Shown here one piece after another: positions 30,385-63,401 of a stretch of DNA of 64,000 nucleotides; the stretch's first letter is position 1, and each line of letters starts with the position of its first letter. The DNA is taken from contig NZ_CP009516.1 of the NCBI RefSeq assembly GCF_000970285.1, positions 1,529,036 to 1,593,035 of the forward strand. The letters run 5' to 3'. The translations under genes were made by a program, and so were the position numbers. The notes beneath the pieces are model-generated. The model saw only the letters and a list, made by a program, of their open reading frames with translations, had not been told where the DNA came from and searched no databases. The DNA comes from Methanosarcina horonobensis HB-1 = JCM 15518 (GTDB taxonomy: Archaea > Halobacteriota > Methanosarcinia > Methanosarcinales > Methanosarcinaceae).

Positions 30385-30797
30385 TTTTAGGTGACCTTTT
30401 TTGAACAACTTCGTTTTATGCAAGATTTAATTGACTTATATGGGAATCTTAGATTATCTTTAGACAAGCCAATGCAGAATATATTCTAAATAGACTGCTT
30501 AATTATTACTGTAAAAATATATTTCCGGCGCGTACCGCTCCCCTTTCTCCCCACCTACCTCTTATCAGTTTCTGATCCTGCATCAAATCAATTCGCGACT
30601 AAATCCTCAAAATCATAAAAATTCAAGCAGGACCCCGGAATGGAAAATTCTTGACAGGGCCGGGGACACCTGAGAGCCTGTCTTAAATAAATCTGGTCAC
30701 ATAATCAGGATAGTAACTTAACCATTAGAGTTAACATTCCTCATTATCCAGTTGTAGATGGTTTGAGTTTGAAGACGTCTCCAGGAGGTAGAAGATT
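30385..30797. other. Spacer with repeat copy and an IS-end-like sequence
   Basis: Contains the right 40-base repeat and, at 30673-30686, GAGCCTGTCTTAAA, the same core as the ends of the MITE at 47622-47826 and the solo end at 48553. No gene is seen. A strong AGGAGG ribosome site at its 3' edge serves the DUF6326-like gene. Confidence 0.5.
30520..30559 (+). repeat. 40-base direct repeat, right copy, flanking hicBA locus 2
   Basis: Second copy of 29836-29875 with three substitutions, in the same orientation, 135 bases after the hicA stop. Confidence 0.85.
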
Positions 30798-58477: not shown

Positions 58478-59014
58478 TTAATCTTTAGTCTCAAAATTCA
58501 TTTCAGCGACTACAGGTTGTATGTTAAGATACATTGGAACAAATTCTCTATTTTTATATTTCTCTACAAGTTTGAATTCGTTTTTTTGATAGAAGCCGAT
58601 TGAGTTCTGTTTTGAATCAACAAGAATGTATCTGCATCCTATACTTTCACAAATAGATAACGTTTTACCTATGGCTGCCAGCAATAGATATGTACCTATT
58701 CCTTTTCTTTCAAATCTGGAATCTACTGCCAGCCGTGCAATTTTAACCCCAGGGTATTTGCGGTACTCGTAATGTTCAAGTCCATCTATTACGGCTTTAG
58801 CTTCAATTGTATCTGCTATCAGAGTATAAAATCCGACCAACTCACTATTCCAAAAGCATAAACTGGTTCTGCTGATCAAGTTATTTTGATCGTTAAGAGC
58901 ATCGTTTTTCAGAAAATCATTCAATTCCCTGCTTAAACAGCTAAAAGAAGAAAGATTATGAGTTTTATTAAGAGGTATTGTGTGAAGTTCAGAGTCTGGA
59001 ATTATGGAGTTCAA
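58478..59014 (-). CDS. GNAT toxin (TacT/AtaT-like acetyltransferase)
   Basis: A 178-residue acetyltransferase with the layout of toxin-type GNATs: FSCLSRELNDFLKNDALNDQ at the start, LVGFYTLIADTIEA, KIARLAVDSRFERKGIGTYL with the acetyl-CoA loop, and FYQKNEFKLVEKYKNREFVP. Such enzymes block translation by acetylating aminoacyl-tRNA. Start is TTG at 59014, two bases after the stop of a 48-residue antitoxin gene. It is therefore the second gene of a compact toxin-antitoxin operon. Confidence 0.85.
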   Translation of the reverse strand: MNSIIPDSELHTIPLNKTHNLSSFSCLSRELNDFLKNDALNDQNNLISRTSLCFWNSELVGFYTLIADTIEAKAVIDGLEHYEYRKYPGVKIARLAVDSRFERKGIGTYLLLAAIGKTLSICESIGCRYILVDSKQNSIGFYQKNEFKLVEKYKNREFVPMYLNIQPVVAEMNFETKD

Positions 59015-59336: not shown

Positions 59337-59730
59337 TAAGGCGGGAAGTCCCCTTCCTCGGAGCGAAGCGACAGGTGGGGGATGAAAGCCGTCAACTTCC
59401 TCACGTTCTCTTGTTATTGATTCTGCTAACTTACTTGTATTATTAAGGCCATTATATAGTGCTGTATTGTCACCACAAGCTGAAGCGAGAACCAAGCAAG
59501 GCGGTTGGAAACAGGATATGGCAACTCCTGAAGGGATCGGGAGATAACGCCACTGAAAGGTGGAAGCTGTAAAGCATCTCAAGTATATCACGCTCATAGA
59601 TTCCAATTCAAATTCCATCACCTGCGGAACGCGGGGAAGAGCCTGTATGACTTGTCGCCATTAGGCGGAGGGGTGACTCAGGAAGCTCCTCCCTCAAAAC
59701 TCTGAGCTTCGCGAAGAGTTTAGGGAGGGG
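59337..59730. mobile_element. Non-autonomous IS200/IS605-type palindromic element
   Basis: Both ends hold subterminal hairpins as in IS200/IS605 elements: one at 59349-59382 (TCCCC...GGGGA around CTCGGAGCGAAGCGACAGG), the other at 59688-59728 (CCTCCCTCAAAACTC ... GAGTTTAGGGAGG). No tnpA or tnpB is inside the roughly 395 bases. The first end resembles the right end that overlaps guide RNA in TnpB-bearing elements. The other end lies within the STAND NTPase gene, so this insertion ended that gene. Confidence 0.65.
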
Positions 59731-60975
59731 TAGTTCACGATTACTCTGATCCCCAGAATATAAATACCAATCACTTTCCCGTGTTGTAATCAATAACCTG
59801 TAATTGCTGCCAACGTGCATTTGCAATATTTGGGCTAAACGGTTCCATTCTTTTAACTGCGCATCTAAATTATCTAGTACTATTAAGGGGAGCTCACCAA
59901 CCTTAATTCGCGAACGTATATACTCAACAATGGAATCAAGTTCTTTGGAGTCCATGCACCAAGAAAGAAGATAGACTGAATAGTTATTGCTTAGTTCATA
60001 TGCAACACGCCAAGCAAGGGTTGTTTTTCCTTGTCCGCTAGATGACTTTATAATGATTATGGTGCTGTCATTTATTGTGCTTTTTATCTTATTTTCTAAA
60101 TCTGGTCTAGGTACAGGGAGCCCTGCTACAATGTCAGCTGGATCGGCCTTTTTCCCTTCGTAGTACATCCCATCGTTTGAAGCAGATATCTTCCTAAAAT
60201 CGATTGGCTTTATCCAATGCACGGCAGGATTCACCGCACCTCGGTTAATATCTTCCCTAACTTCAAGGATGTATTTGTCCAACTCACTTTTGTCGATGCT
60301 TTCTCTATTCTTCATTTTAGAGAAGCACAGGTAGAATAATGAACGTGCATACAATATTTCATTGCCGGTTGAAATGTCATATCGTTCAATCAGCATTGGC
60401 TCAATTGACGCTTTAATCGAGCCTCGATTCACTCGTTCAAATTTGAGGCACCTTATAAAATCTCCAAAGCGGTATCTTTCCCAGTTCCAATAAGGTGTAC
60501 TTTCTTGAATCTGTTTGATGATATTTGTCCAATACTCTATGGCATTGTTATCCAATTTCTCATCATCTCTACGGTTAACAAGTTTTTTGAAATTACCATC
60601 AGCAATGTTAAAATCATATATCAAAACAAAAGCGCGAGAATTATTTGAAATGTCATGTAAATATACTTCAAGAAAATTTTTCAGAATGCTTTTTAAATAA
60701 CTTGCATCCTGTCGGTTTTCAGAATATTTCACCTGAATATGTTCAATATGTTTAGTTTTTTCAAGAACATAAGTATCAATATCTTCTAAGCCCTCAAGAC
60801 GAATCAATGCAGTTTCATCCCTTAGAAACTTAAGCAATGTGTAACAGGAATAAAGACATTGATAATCGAATCCAGTCAGCGCAACTGCCCCACCATCTCT
60901 TGAATTTTCAACTTTGGTAAGGTCGTAACTGTTTTTTGATGTCACTTTCCCTTTTTTCCTTTTACTTTTTGACAT
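59608..60975 (-). pseudogene. STAND NTPase with Cap4/DUF4297-like nuclease domain, cut by an IS element
   Basis: The 455-residue frame starts at 60975 with a basic tail. Residues 28-200 resemble the Cap4/DUF4297 PD-(D/E)XK nuclease of anti-phage proteins: GGAVALTGFDYQCLYSCYTL, then IRLEGLEDIDTYV and HIEHIQVKYSENR (E...D...QxK). A STAND NTPase follows, with Walker A SSSGQGKTT near 310, Walker B LPLIVLDNLDA and LLITTRESDW. This is the Avs-like layout of effector, NTPase, sensor. The last 45 residues (after YSGDQSNRE) are read from the palindromic element, and the long sensor repeat domain is missing. Without it the protein is unlikely to detect phage. Confidence 0.75.
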
Positions 60976-61862: not shown

Positions 61863-61919
61863 AAAAGAGTTATGAAACTTTTATTGATGTGTCAATAAAA
61901 CTGGTTTTGGGACAGACTC
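61863..61919 (+). repeat. Insertion-sequence end, second copy
   Basis: Direct copy of 58105-58157, continuing to GGGACAGACTC, so the inward-reading end is GAGTCTGTCCCAAAACC. The pair brackets 3.8 kb carrying the GNAT operon and the STAND remnant. Confidence 0.7.
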
Positions 61920-61956: not shown

Positions 61957-61986
61957 GTTTCAATCCCTCTAAGGTCTGATTTTAGC
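61957..61986 (+). CRISPR. Solitary CRISPR-repeat-like sequence, left
   Basis: Thirty bases beginning GTTTCAATCCCTCTAAGG and ending TCTGATTTTAGC have the form of the 30-base archaeal repeat with GTTTCAATCC at one end and GATTTTAAC-like at the other. No second repeat lies within spacer distance; a diverged copy is at 63373-63401. Confidence 0.5.
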
Positions 61987-62041
61987 AAGTGAGTTACAGA
62001 TCAATGTTATATGGATTAAAAAGTTAGGGAGGGACATACCT

Positions 62042-63289
62042 TTAATATGAGATTAGTCGTATGGTCTCCTCATTTGGGATGTAGATATACCCACCTACTC
62101 TCAACTGTTCCAATGCTTTTTCAAAGAAGAGACCGGGAACTCGGGTATTTTGTCTTACAGTCTCAAGAGTTAGCGGAACACCTGCATCATTCCTGAGAGT
62201 CAGTTCTTTTAATAGTGTTTCTGCATGTGAATTCAGTCTATAGATTTGGTCTACATTCAGAGGCTCTATGTTCTGTCCTACCATTATCTCTGAAACCATA
62301 GAGTACCATGCCTGGAAACTTTGAGCAAGTTCAGCAGGGGTAACAATAGACTTGAAGGTAATTCTCGCAAAAGCCGCTACAAGCTGGGGAATAGCTCCTC
62401 CGATGTCCTGAAAAAAGGGAACCTCTTTCTGGTCAGTGATTCGGTCCAGCATATCATAAATCATAACCTCCACTCTTTTGTAATGCCTTGGAAGAAGCAC
62501 AGGATTGAAAAGAAGAGTATCCAGCAGGTAATTTCTGATTAATGCCTCATTGTGCTCCACATTCTCTTTGATCTCACTGTACGGCTTAAACTCTGCATCA
62601 AAGGCTATGGGAATATGTACAGGGACATTATTTGCATTATAGTAAGCAACACTGACCTCCTGGCTCTCGGGCAGGTTAATACGTTCATTCTTTGTAGTAG
62701 TTTTATAAAAGTTGGGAGAGTCTATCTGCCTGAATTCGTTAGGAATTAGAGACATTATCCGGTTAAACTCTGCAAGCTTCTTGTTTTTTTGAGAGTTTGT
62801 GAAAACTATGGTATTGACTCCCCCTTTTAAGATCTCGGCTACCTGGGGAGAGGAAACTGTATGCACTCCTATACAGTCTGCTATCTCATGGATGTTATAC
62901 CTATCTTTGATAGGGTAGGTTATCAAATGCAAGTATTCCTCCCTATCTATCAGTCCCTTAGTCCTTAGTCTGTTTGGATCTACCGTTTCCCAGCCTGTGA
63001 TATATCTGATCTCAAAAGTCTGTAGCACTCCACCTATAACTTCATACTCTATGGAAGTCTCGGCAACAGTTACTCTTATGAGGGTCCTTTTTGGGGGGAT
63101 TTCTCCTATCTTAACTACATAAATTATATTTAAAGGATTCCTCAAAAATGGGGAAGGGTCTAAATAGAAAATTCCTAGCTTCTGGTTCCTGAATCGGACA
63201 TATCCCATATTCTCTTTTTCAAAAAGAAGTTTATATTCAGCACCAGAAAACTCATACCCACGTGTTCTTTCCTGCAATGGTAAGGACAT
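62042..63289 (-). CDS. Orphan 415-residue protein between two CRISPR-like repeats
   Basis: No family is recognised. The N-terminal 120 residues look like beta strands (YKLLFEKENMGYVRFRNQKL, GIFYLDPSPFL). The middle is mixed alpha/beta, with a segment VAYYNANNVPVHIPIAFDAE. The C-terminal 150 residues are helical, with a possible winged-helix end (TLETVRQNTRVPGLFFEKAL, EQLRVGGYIYIPNEE), which may bind DNA. There is no signal peptide, membrane helix or cysteine motif. It has full-length, clean coding and its own upstream region. It is flanked at about 55 and 84 bases by solitary CRISPR-repeat-like sequences. Confidence 0.7.
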   Translation of the reverse strand: MSLPLQERTRGYEFSGAEYKLLFEKENMGYVRFRNQKLGIFYLDPSPFLRNPLNIIYVVKIGEIPPKRTLIRVTVAETSIEYEVIGGVLQTFEIRYITGWETVDPNRLRTKGLIDREEYLHLITYPIKDRYNIHEIADCIGVHTVSSPQVAEILKGGVNTIVFTNSQKNKKLAEFNRIMSLIPNEFRQIDSPNFYKTTTKNERINLPESQEVSVAYYNANNVPVHIPIAFDAEFKPYSEIKENVEHNEALIRNYLLDTLLFNPVLLPRHYKRVEVMIYDMLDRITDQKEVPFFQDIGGAIPQLVAAFARITFKSIVTPAELAQSFQAWYSMVSEIMVGQNIEPLNVDQIYRLNSHAETLLKELTLRNDAGVPLTLETVRQNTRVPGLFFEKALEQLRVGGYIYIPNEETIRLISY

Positions 63290-63372
63290 AAGTCTCAGAT
63301 TCCTTTTACTTTCAACTCTATAAAACCCTTATTTTACTTTAGCCAGAAGTGTTTGTGATATTTCAGATTCTC

Positions 63373-63401
63373 ATTTCAATCCTCTTAGGTCTGATTTTAT
63401 C
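63373..63401 (+). CRISPR. Solitary CRISPR-repeat-like sequence, right
   Basis: ATTTCAATCCTCTTAGG ... TCTGATTTTATC: 29 bases, matching 61957-61986 at about 25 positions with one gap, in the same direction, 1.4 kb apart. Confidence 0.45.

Follow-up and report, generated by a model that had tools for sequence, protein, structure and literature searches.

A CRISPR array is commonly regarded as a regular list of short spacers. Integron gene cassettes, each consisting of a gene bounded by short direct sites, are found at different loci. In its passage on the subject, a review of the Sulfolobales calls CRISPR arrays relatively intractable to transposition. In Sulfolobus solfataricus, an 899-bp pNOB8-like plasmid fragment was described as lying between two repeats of CRISPR locus F, in the part of the report concerned with that locus (PMC4390879). 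For archaeal viruses, the pertinent section of another paper describes solitary repeat units and mini-arrays and envisages integration through recombination between a solitary and a resident repeat (PMC8616872). Neither gene-filled CRISPR trails nor CRISPR-bounded gene units in Methanosarcina were found in the titles and abstract openings surveyed, a body of literature in which subscription papers were mostly not included.

We analyzed a repeat-bounded unit in a 64,000-nt stretch of Methanosarcina horonobensis HB-1 = JCM 15518 (the window; NZ_CP009516.1, positions 1,529,036 to 1,593,035). The unit shares its repeat sequence with the Methanosarcina type I-B1 CRISPR-Cas system (Cas8b1/Cst1, Cas7/Cst2, Cas5t, Cas3; 30-nt repeat) and keeps a decayed repeat-spacer-repeat, but it has a gene between its repeats, and the window genome carries neither an array of that repeat nor Cas8b1. 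Like the S. solfataricus insert, it is gene-sized DNA between two CRISPR repeats; that insert, as the locus is described there, is part of a CRISPR locus and has a partial plasmid match (PMC4390879), whereas the window block is detached from any array, holds a gene maintained by selection and occurs at two loci in two species. Solo repeats are also a property of the archaeal-virus solitary repeat units as presented in the section cited, from which the window unit differs in that no virus was found with it, Cas8b1 is missing and the repeats are decaying (PMC8616872). As in an integron cassette, a gene with short direct border repeats is found at different loci; unlike a cassette, the block has no integrase, a single observed transfer and decaying borders.

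Repeats and layout of the unit

The initial annotation, made from the sequence alone, had reported two solitary thirty-base CRISPR-repeat-like sequences flanking a clean 415-residue gene of unknown family. Both sequences were found where it had placed them, in direct orientation around an intact frame of 415 codons; a third, decayed copy and a relic spacer had been overlooked. The features of the unit are listed below.

61957–63401, no strand: repeat-bounded unit (R, gene, R', spacer, R), 88.4% identical to Methanosarcina sp. KYL-1, with ends at the outer repeat edges
61957–61986, plus strand: solo 30-nt type I-B1 CRISPR repeat (left), score 28/30, its 27-mer equal to the array repeats of sister genomes
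61987–62041, no strand: non-coding stretch from the left repeat to the 3' end of the gene, 80% identical to KYL-1 over ungapped columns
62042–63289, minus strand: gene for a 415-aa protein with a predicted MCM fold and no Walker A, dN/dS 0.10 versus KYL-1
63308–63337, plus strand: third repeat R', strongly decayed and recognised only through the KYL-1 comparison, score 8 (KYL-1 copy 13)
63338–63371, no strand: relic spacer of 34 nt, 21/34 columns identical to KYL-1
63372–63401, plus strand: solo 30-nt repeat (right) with one deletion and substitutions, score 21

The left repeat reads GTTTCAATCCCTCTAAGGTCTGATTTTAGC, while the right repeat (score 21/30) carries its one deletion and only a few substitutions. 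No match to the repeat pattern arose in 100 shuffles of the window, and the best score in 40 Markov shuffles was 15, compared to 28 and 21 for the outer repeats. The 27-mer of the left copy is the exact repeat of true arrays in sister genomes, where it recurs at steps of ~63-71 nt among the neighbours listed. A chance resemblance to a CRISPR repeat is refuted by this identity, and with the shuffle results its probability is negligible. By itself, R' is at noise level. On the gene strand it reads TTTTATAG, about 30 nt before the start codon; by eye this motif resembles an archaeal TATA box and is absent from the same place in KYL-1.

Elsewhere in the window, the best scores were 11 for the 30-nt type and 14 for the 37-nt type (30591-30627), both at or near the control level, and up to 15 kb beyond the window end (locus L091) there was a single hit with a score of 12. 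The degenerate pattern, allowing up to 3 mismatches, recovered the left copy alone from the whole genome (the right copy carries a deletion). A further 30-nt-type relic (score 22) lies far off at 1038966-1038995, in the scattered repeats beside array A. The unit amounts to two recognisable repeats 1.4 kb apart plus one decayed copy, and not to a functional array. Family matches of the six frames neighbouring the unit gave no cas gene. The MCM-like gene is the only frame of at least 80 aa inside the unit, and no recombinase or transposase of its own was found among such frames. An inverted repeat arm at 61879-61901 raised the possibility of an IS-type end in the left flank, which we rejected: a nearby 19-nt piece occurred at 6 of 193 loci, and each of the six belongs to the window region itself. 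About 1 kb from the unit, a 455-aa frame (59608-60975, minus strand) combines a Cap4/LmuA-like nuclease domain with a following STAND NTPase domain that is seemingly cut short, and it is perhaps a broken defence gene.

The 30-nt repeat pattern (up to 2 mismatches) is carried by 14 of the 30 genomes of the genus. Eight have between 4 and 85 copies (G013 32, G027 51, G024 71, G029 32, G022 34, G017 22, G025, which is KYL-1, 85, and G004 4), and six have one or two (the window genome G000, G018, G020, G011, G003 and G014). The operon adjoining the 30-nt array of G027 encodes Cas3, Cas5t, Cas7/Cst2 and Cas8b1/Cst1, placing it in subtype I-B. Cas8b1 was present in seven of the 30 genomes, namely in 7/8 with at least four copies, 0/6 with one or two and 0/16 of the others; the exception among the eight multi-copy genomes, G022, has a variant repeat and no Cas8b1. 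The framing sequences, called CRISPR-repeat-like by the initial annotation, are thus the type I-B1 CRISPR repeat of Methanosarcina.

Cas8b1 (TIGR01908) was not found in the window genome, a single contig of 5.02 Mb with a completeness of 99.95%. Cas1 gave four matches there that span most of the family, two of which lie in longer open frames (482 and 407 aa), as well as two partial matches. Since the genome has only scattered 30-nt copies and no Cas8b1, these copies are fossils, as far as Cas8b1 tells. The check proposed in the initial annotation, a comparison with the genome's own CRISPR repeats, gave a divided answer: a different repeat, of 37 nt, makes up the arrays found in this genome, while the 30-nt sequence matches the arrays of sister genomes. 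That annotation had also held that clearly differing genomic repeats, or many solo copies unrelated to the gene, would speak against it. The own arrays do differ, and solo repeats unrelated to the gene are numerous, which makes the feature a fossil of a CRISPR system lost here, though still a real one.

The gene and its block in Methanosarcina sp. KYL-1

The assignment of the gene to an unknown family was superseded by profile, model and structure matches. Pfam, NCBIfam and PADLOC offered no name of useful strength for the 415-aa protein. A profile from ten relatives matched MCM4 (E 0.0028), and the AlphaFold2 model (mean pLDDT 82) matched MCM chains in Foldseek with E 2e-9, at a TMq of only 0.26-0.39 over the whole model. 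The structural match to human MCM7 had a Z of 17.8 and an rmsd of 3.2 over 216 residues, residues beyond ~337 being barely covered. The archaeal MCM homologue 3f8t of Methanopyrus kandleri gave a Z of 15.4 and an rmsd of 6.5 across 266 residues lying within model positions 25-336; the window protein differs from it in having no Walker A and no Pfam or NCBIfam family. A search of the protein for the Walker A motif G-x4-GK[ST] gave no match. The model predicts an MCM fold without Walker A and a helicase-like protein.

Of the 59 genomes searched, 15 have a relative of the gene. We retrieved nineteen named relatives, which come from Methanosarcina, Methanolobus, Methanomicrobiales and one contig labelled Bacteroidota. 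Only one, in Methanosarcina sp. KYL-1, sits among such repeats; the other 18 had none in the flanks examined (up to 10 kb, often less). At five of 15 relative loci, the gene lies between two genes which we take to be trmG10 and truA; M. spelaei and others carry it in this position. In the window genome and KYL-1 the gene is not at this site, because the presumed trmG10 and truA are only 0.1-0.2 kb apart there. The Bacteroidota-labelled contig (L133) carries an archaeal MCM-like gene and a Methanomicrobiales-type 138-aa neighbour, and is probably mis-binned. A gene of 138-150 aa, possibly encoding a partner, lies upstream of the MCM-like gene at six loci (L133 and L135-L139).

KYL-1 (NZ_VOUA01000011.1) has the repeat, gene, repeat, spacer and repeat in the same order as the window. 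The homology covers 1459 columns at 88.4% identity, and in each genome it stops no more than 2 nt from the outer repeat edges. When 6 kb of sequence surrounding the unit was compared with KYL-1, this repeat-to-repeat stretch was the longest of the matches listed, and it was so again in the reverse search, with KYL-1 as the query. Alignments across both outer edges showed unrelated sequence beyond, and none of the matches listed covered the ~95 nt left or the ~220 nt right of the unit. The far flank in KYL-1 matches the window genome at 745-748 kb (79%), in a large frame that is sensor kinase-like by eye. The same DNA thus has constant ends, the outer repeats, at two loci in two genomes.

Beyond the block, KYL-1 continues with a 35-nt spacer and three 37-nt-type relic repeats, with two small frames between them, to near the contig end, which is reached 1.2 kb past the unit. 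The two frames (77 and 63 aa; L095 18909-19475), each between 37-nt relic repeats, had no Pfam match. Farther out in the window genome, the flanks of the unit are multi-copy, and an empty site could not be reconstructed from them. Some short KYL-1 matches to these flanks are 91-92% identical, as expected of mobile DNA.

We compared fourfold-degenerate third positions of the gene between the window genome and KYL-1, and 116 of 150 were identical. Ten other shared genes, drawn as reciprocal best pairs (frames of at least 150 aa, coverage at least 0.8) from the window, the trm-truA loci and four KYL-1 stretches, had 654 of 1340 identical (Fisher p 1e-11). Inclusion of an eleventh, a GNAT acetyltransferase gene with 41/56, changed the comparison set to 695/1396 (p 5e-11). 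The more frequent match in the block gene shows that the block was laterally shared and entered one or both lineages after their split. High similarity to KYL-1 is not unique to the block, given the 91-92% flank matches and the GNAT gene; the latter (58478-59014, minus strand) lies outside repeats and is perhaps another laterally shared gene. As a background measure, nine matches of at least 400 nt between the window at 30-50 kb and the syntenic KYL-1 contig C8 included eight at 76-83% and one at 69% identity, and one 220-nt piece of the same region was 89% identical.

With a dN/dS of 0.10 versus KYL-1, the gene is under purifying selection. Relative to KYL-1, 17% and 13% of ungapped columns differ in the two outer repeats, each of which also has one indel; the figure is 50% for R' and 20% for the non-coding 3' stretch. 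Judged from these differences, the repeats appear to be without clear constraint, 30-nt samples being too small to speak against weak constraint.

Gene-interrupted repeats beside Methanosarcina arrays

We extended the fit scan to eight array regions totalling 560 kb (~301 kb on the leader-distal side, 233 kb on the leader side), with cut-offs of at least 14 for the 30-nt repeat and at least 15 for the 37-nt repeat. The eight arrays are those with room on both sides; arrays outside the count include that of G022, which is preceded by 6 kb free of scattered repeats, and that on KYL-1 contig C5, where little contig is left. Gene-interrupted fossil repeats adjoined all eight arrays. Of the 141 repeats outside the main arrays, 140 were leader-distal and all were in the orientation of their array, while the reversed control gave 1 hit; counted among the 141 are the repeats of secondary arrays, 20 in G000_B, 50 in G024 and 4 in G027. 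The leader side was assigned from repeat polarity, with ATTGAAAC presumed to be the crRNA handle. This assignment is backed by array-array alignments, which extend past the arrays on that side, by 158-181 nt for 37-nt arrays and by 523-589 nt for 30-nt arrays.

The trails reach up to ~34 kb, and their gaps hold from one to many genes; HicA, an acyltransferase, a Fic-domain pair and cas operons are among the contents. Three trails, those of G000 (1032898-1034782), G024 (3164895-3166780) and G029 (159247-161132), have one gene in common, at 84-88% identity. The proposal that every gap is one cassette was rejected, many gaps having several genes and some having cas operons.

The trail of array A contains a Fic-domain gene with a putative antitoxin gene twice (L089 15371-16087 and 18538-19254; add 1000000 for positions on G000:C1). 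The two copies are 3167 nt apart and their genes are apparently identical. We attempted to read this pair as a second repeat-bounded duplication and rejected it, as the right border is a variant repeat and the left border is not at a repeat. In G020 (L097 10652-14715) and G014 (L099 10049-14107), a 30-nt repeat pair, a 3.9-kb gap containing genes and a perfect 30-nt repeat are located ~150 nt before a 37-nt array, so that two repeat types occur in one trail; neither genome has Cas8b1.

We examined 335 alignments of at least 200 nt holding a gene-sized stretch for ends at repeat edges. An end lay within 12 nt of a repeat edge in 47 of them, many of which are array alignments. Both ends were at repeat edges in at least one genome in three, and one of the two other than the window unit was weakened by closer alignment. 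All four ends coincided with repeat edges only in the window unit.

Origin and meaning of the block

We consider it reasonably probable (about 0.6) that the unit is a piece of fossil type I-B1 array in which a Walker-less MCM gene was lodged, and which was later shared with the KYL-1 lineage as a repeat-to-repeat block. An ordinary chromosomal-type gene would have become lodged among old repeats at the end of an array whose type I-B1 system has since been lost from the window genome. Recombination between direct CRISPR repeats may then have released the block, for instance in the form of a circle carrying one repeat, and the released block may have joined a repeat at a new, unrelated site. Such recombination would be the simplest account of the borders. 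We infer that it set them in one case, since only the window unit has all four alignment ends at repeat edges. Among the three options raised in the initial annotation, a relic array invaded by a gene fits best. Its second, a mobile unit with CRISPR-like ends, is right in that the block is shared with KYL-1 and bordered by repeats, although there is no recombinase and the case is single.

A plain relic array, in which the gene inserted into a decaying array and the borders with KYL-1 are incidental, or come from inter-repeat deletions, after transfer of a larger segment or later rearrangement, is unlikely but a serious contender. Decayed leader-distal array ends with genes between their repeats are frequent in the genus, and some trails are old, as the gene common to three of them indicates; that both borders fall so close to the outer repeat edges in both genomes argues against incidental ends. 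The opposite extension, in which dying Methanosarcina arrays are integron-like gene depots whose repeat-bounded cassettes move across loci and species by means of repeats that decay only afterwards, we regard as doubtful. The third option of the initial annotation, a mini-array with a gene-sized spacer, is apt as a description of appearance, with no sign of Cas-driven capture. Integration of gene-length DNA at a repeat by Cas1 or a casposase, duplicating the repeat as for 35-nt spacers, is improbable: a gene between two repeats is its expected product and the genome has Cas1 matches, but the inserts known from Cas1-Cas2 have the length of a spacer, a trail gap frequently contains several ordinary genes, and no inverted repeats were seen by eye at the insert ends.

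Solitary repeats that still work, as a mini-array or an anti-CRISPR RNA (SRU or Racr type) of a mobile element, are more improbable still. Mini-arrays and solitary repeat units of archaeal viruses have precedents in the relevant sections of two papers (PMC8616872, PMC10651486), and multi-copy flanks would suit a mobile element. Against this, Cas8b1 is lacking, and different copies are damaged in the window genome and in KYL-1. A search of viral contigs gave 0 matches to the exact 27-mer and 11 pattern matches with no relative of the gene, and neither phage records searched with the protein nor plasmids searched with the unit gave a match. Viral carriage together with a matching resident system, by which SRU or Racr repeats are recognised, was thus not found here.

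Returning to the fossil array piece shared as a block, the results highlight that the oldest array ends in the scanned genomes of Methanosarcina form long, ordered fossil trails filled with genes, which preserve a readable trace of once longer arrays. One gene is shared between species as a block bordered by CRISPR repeats, suggesting that DNA moving between species can be delimited by dead CRISPR repeats. Should the repeats act as borders for recombination, dead arrays would offer genes a way to move.
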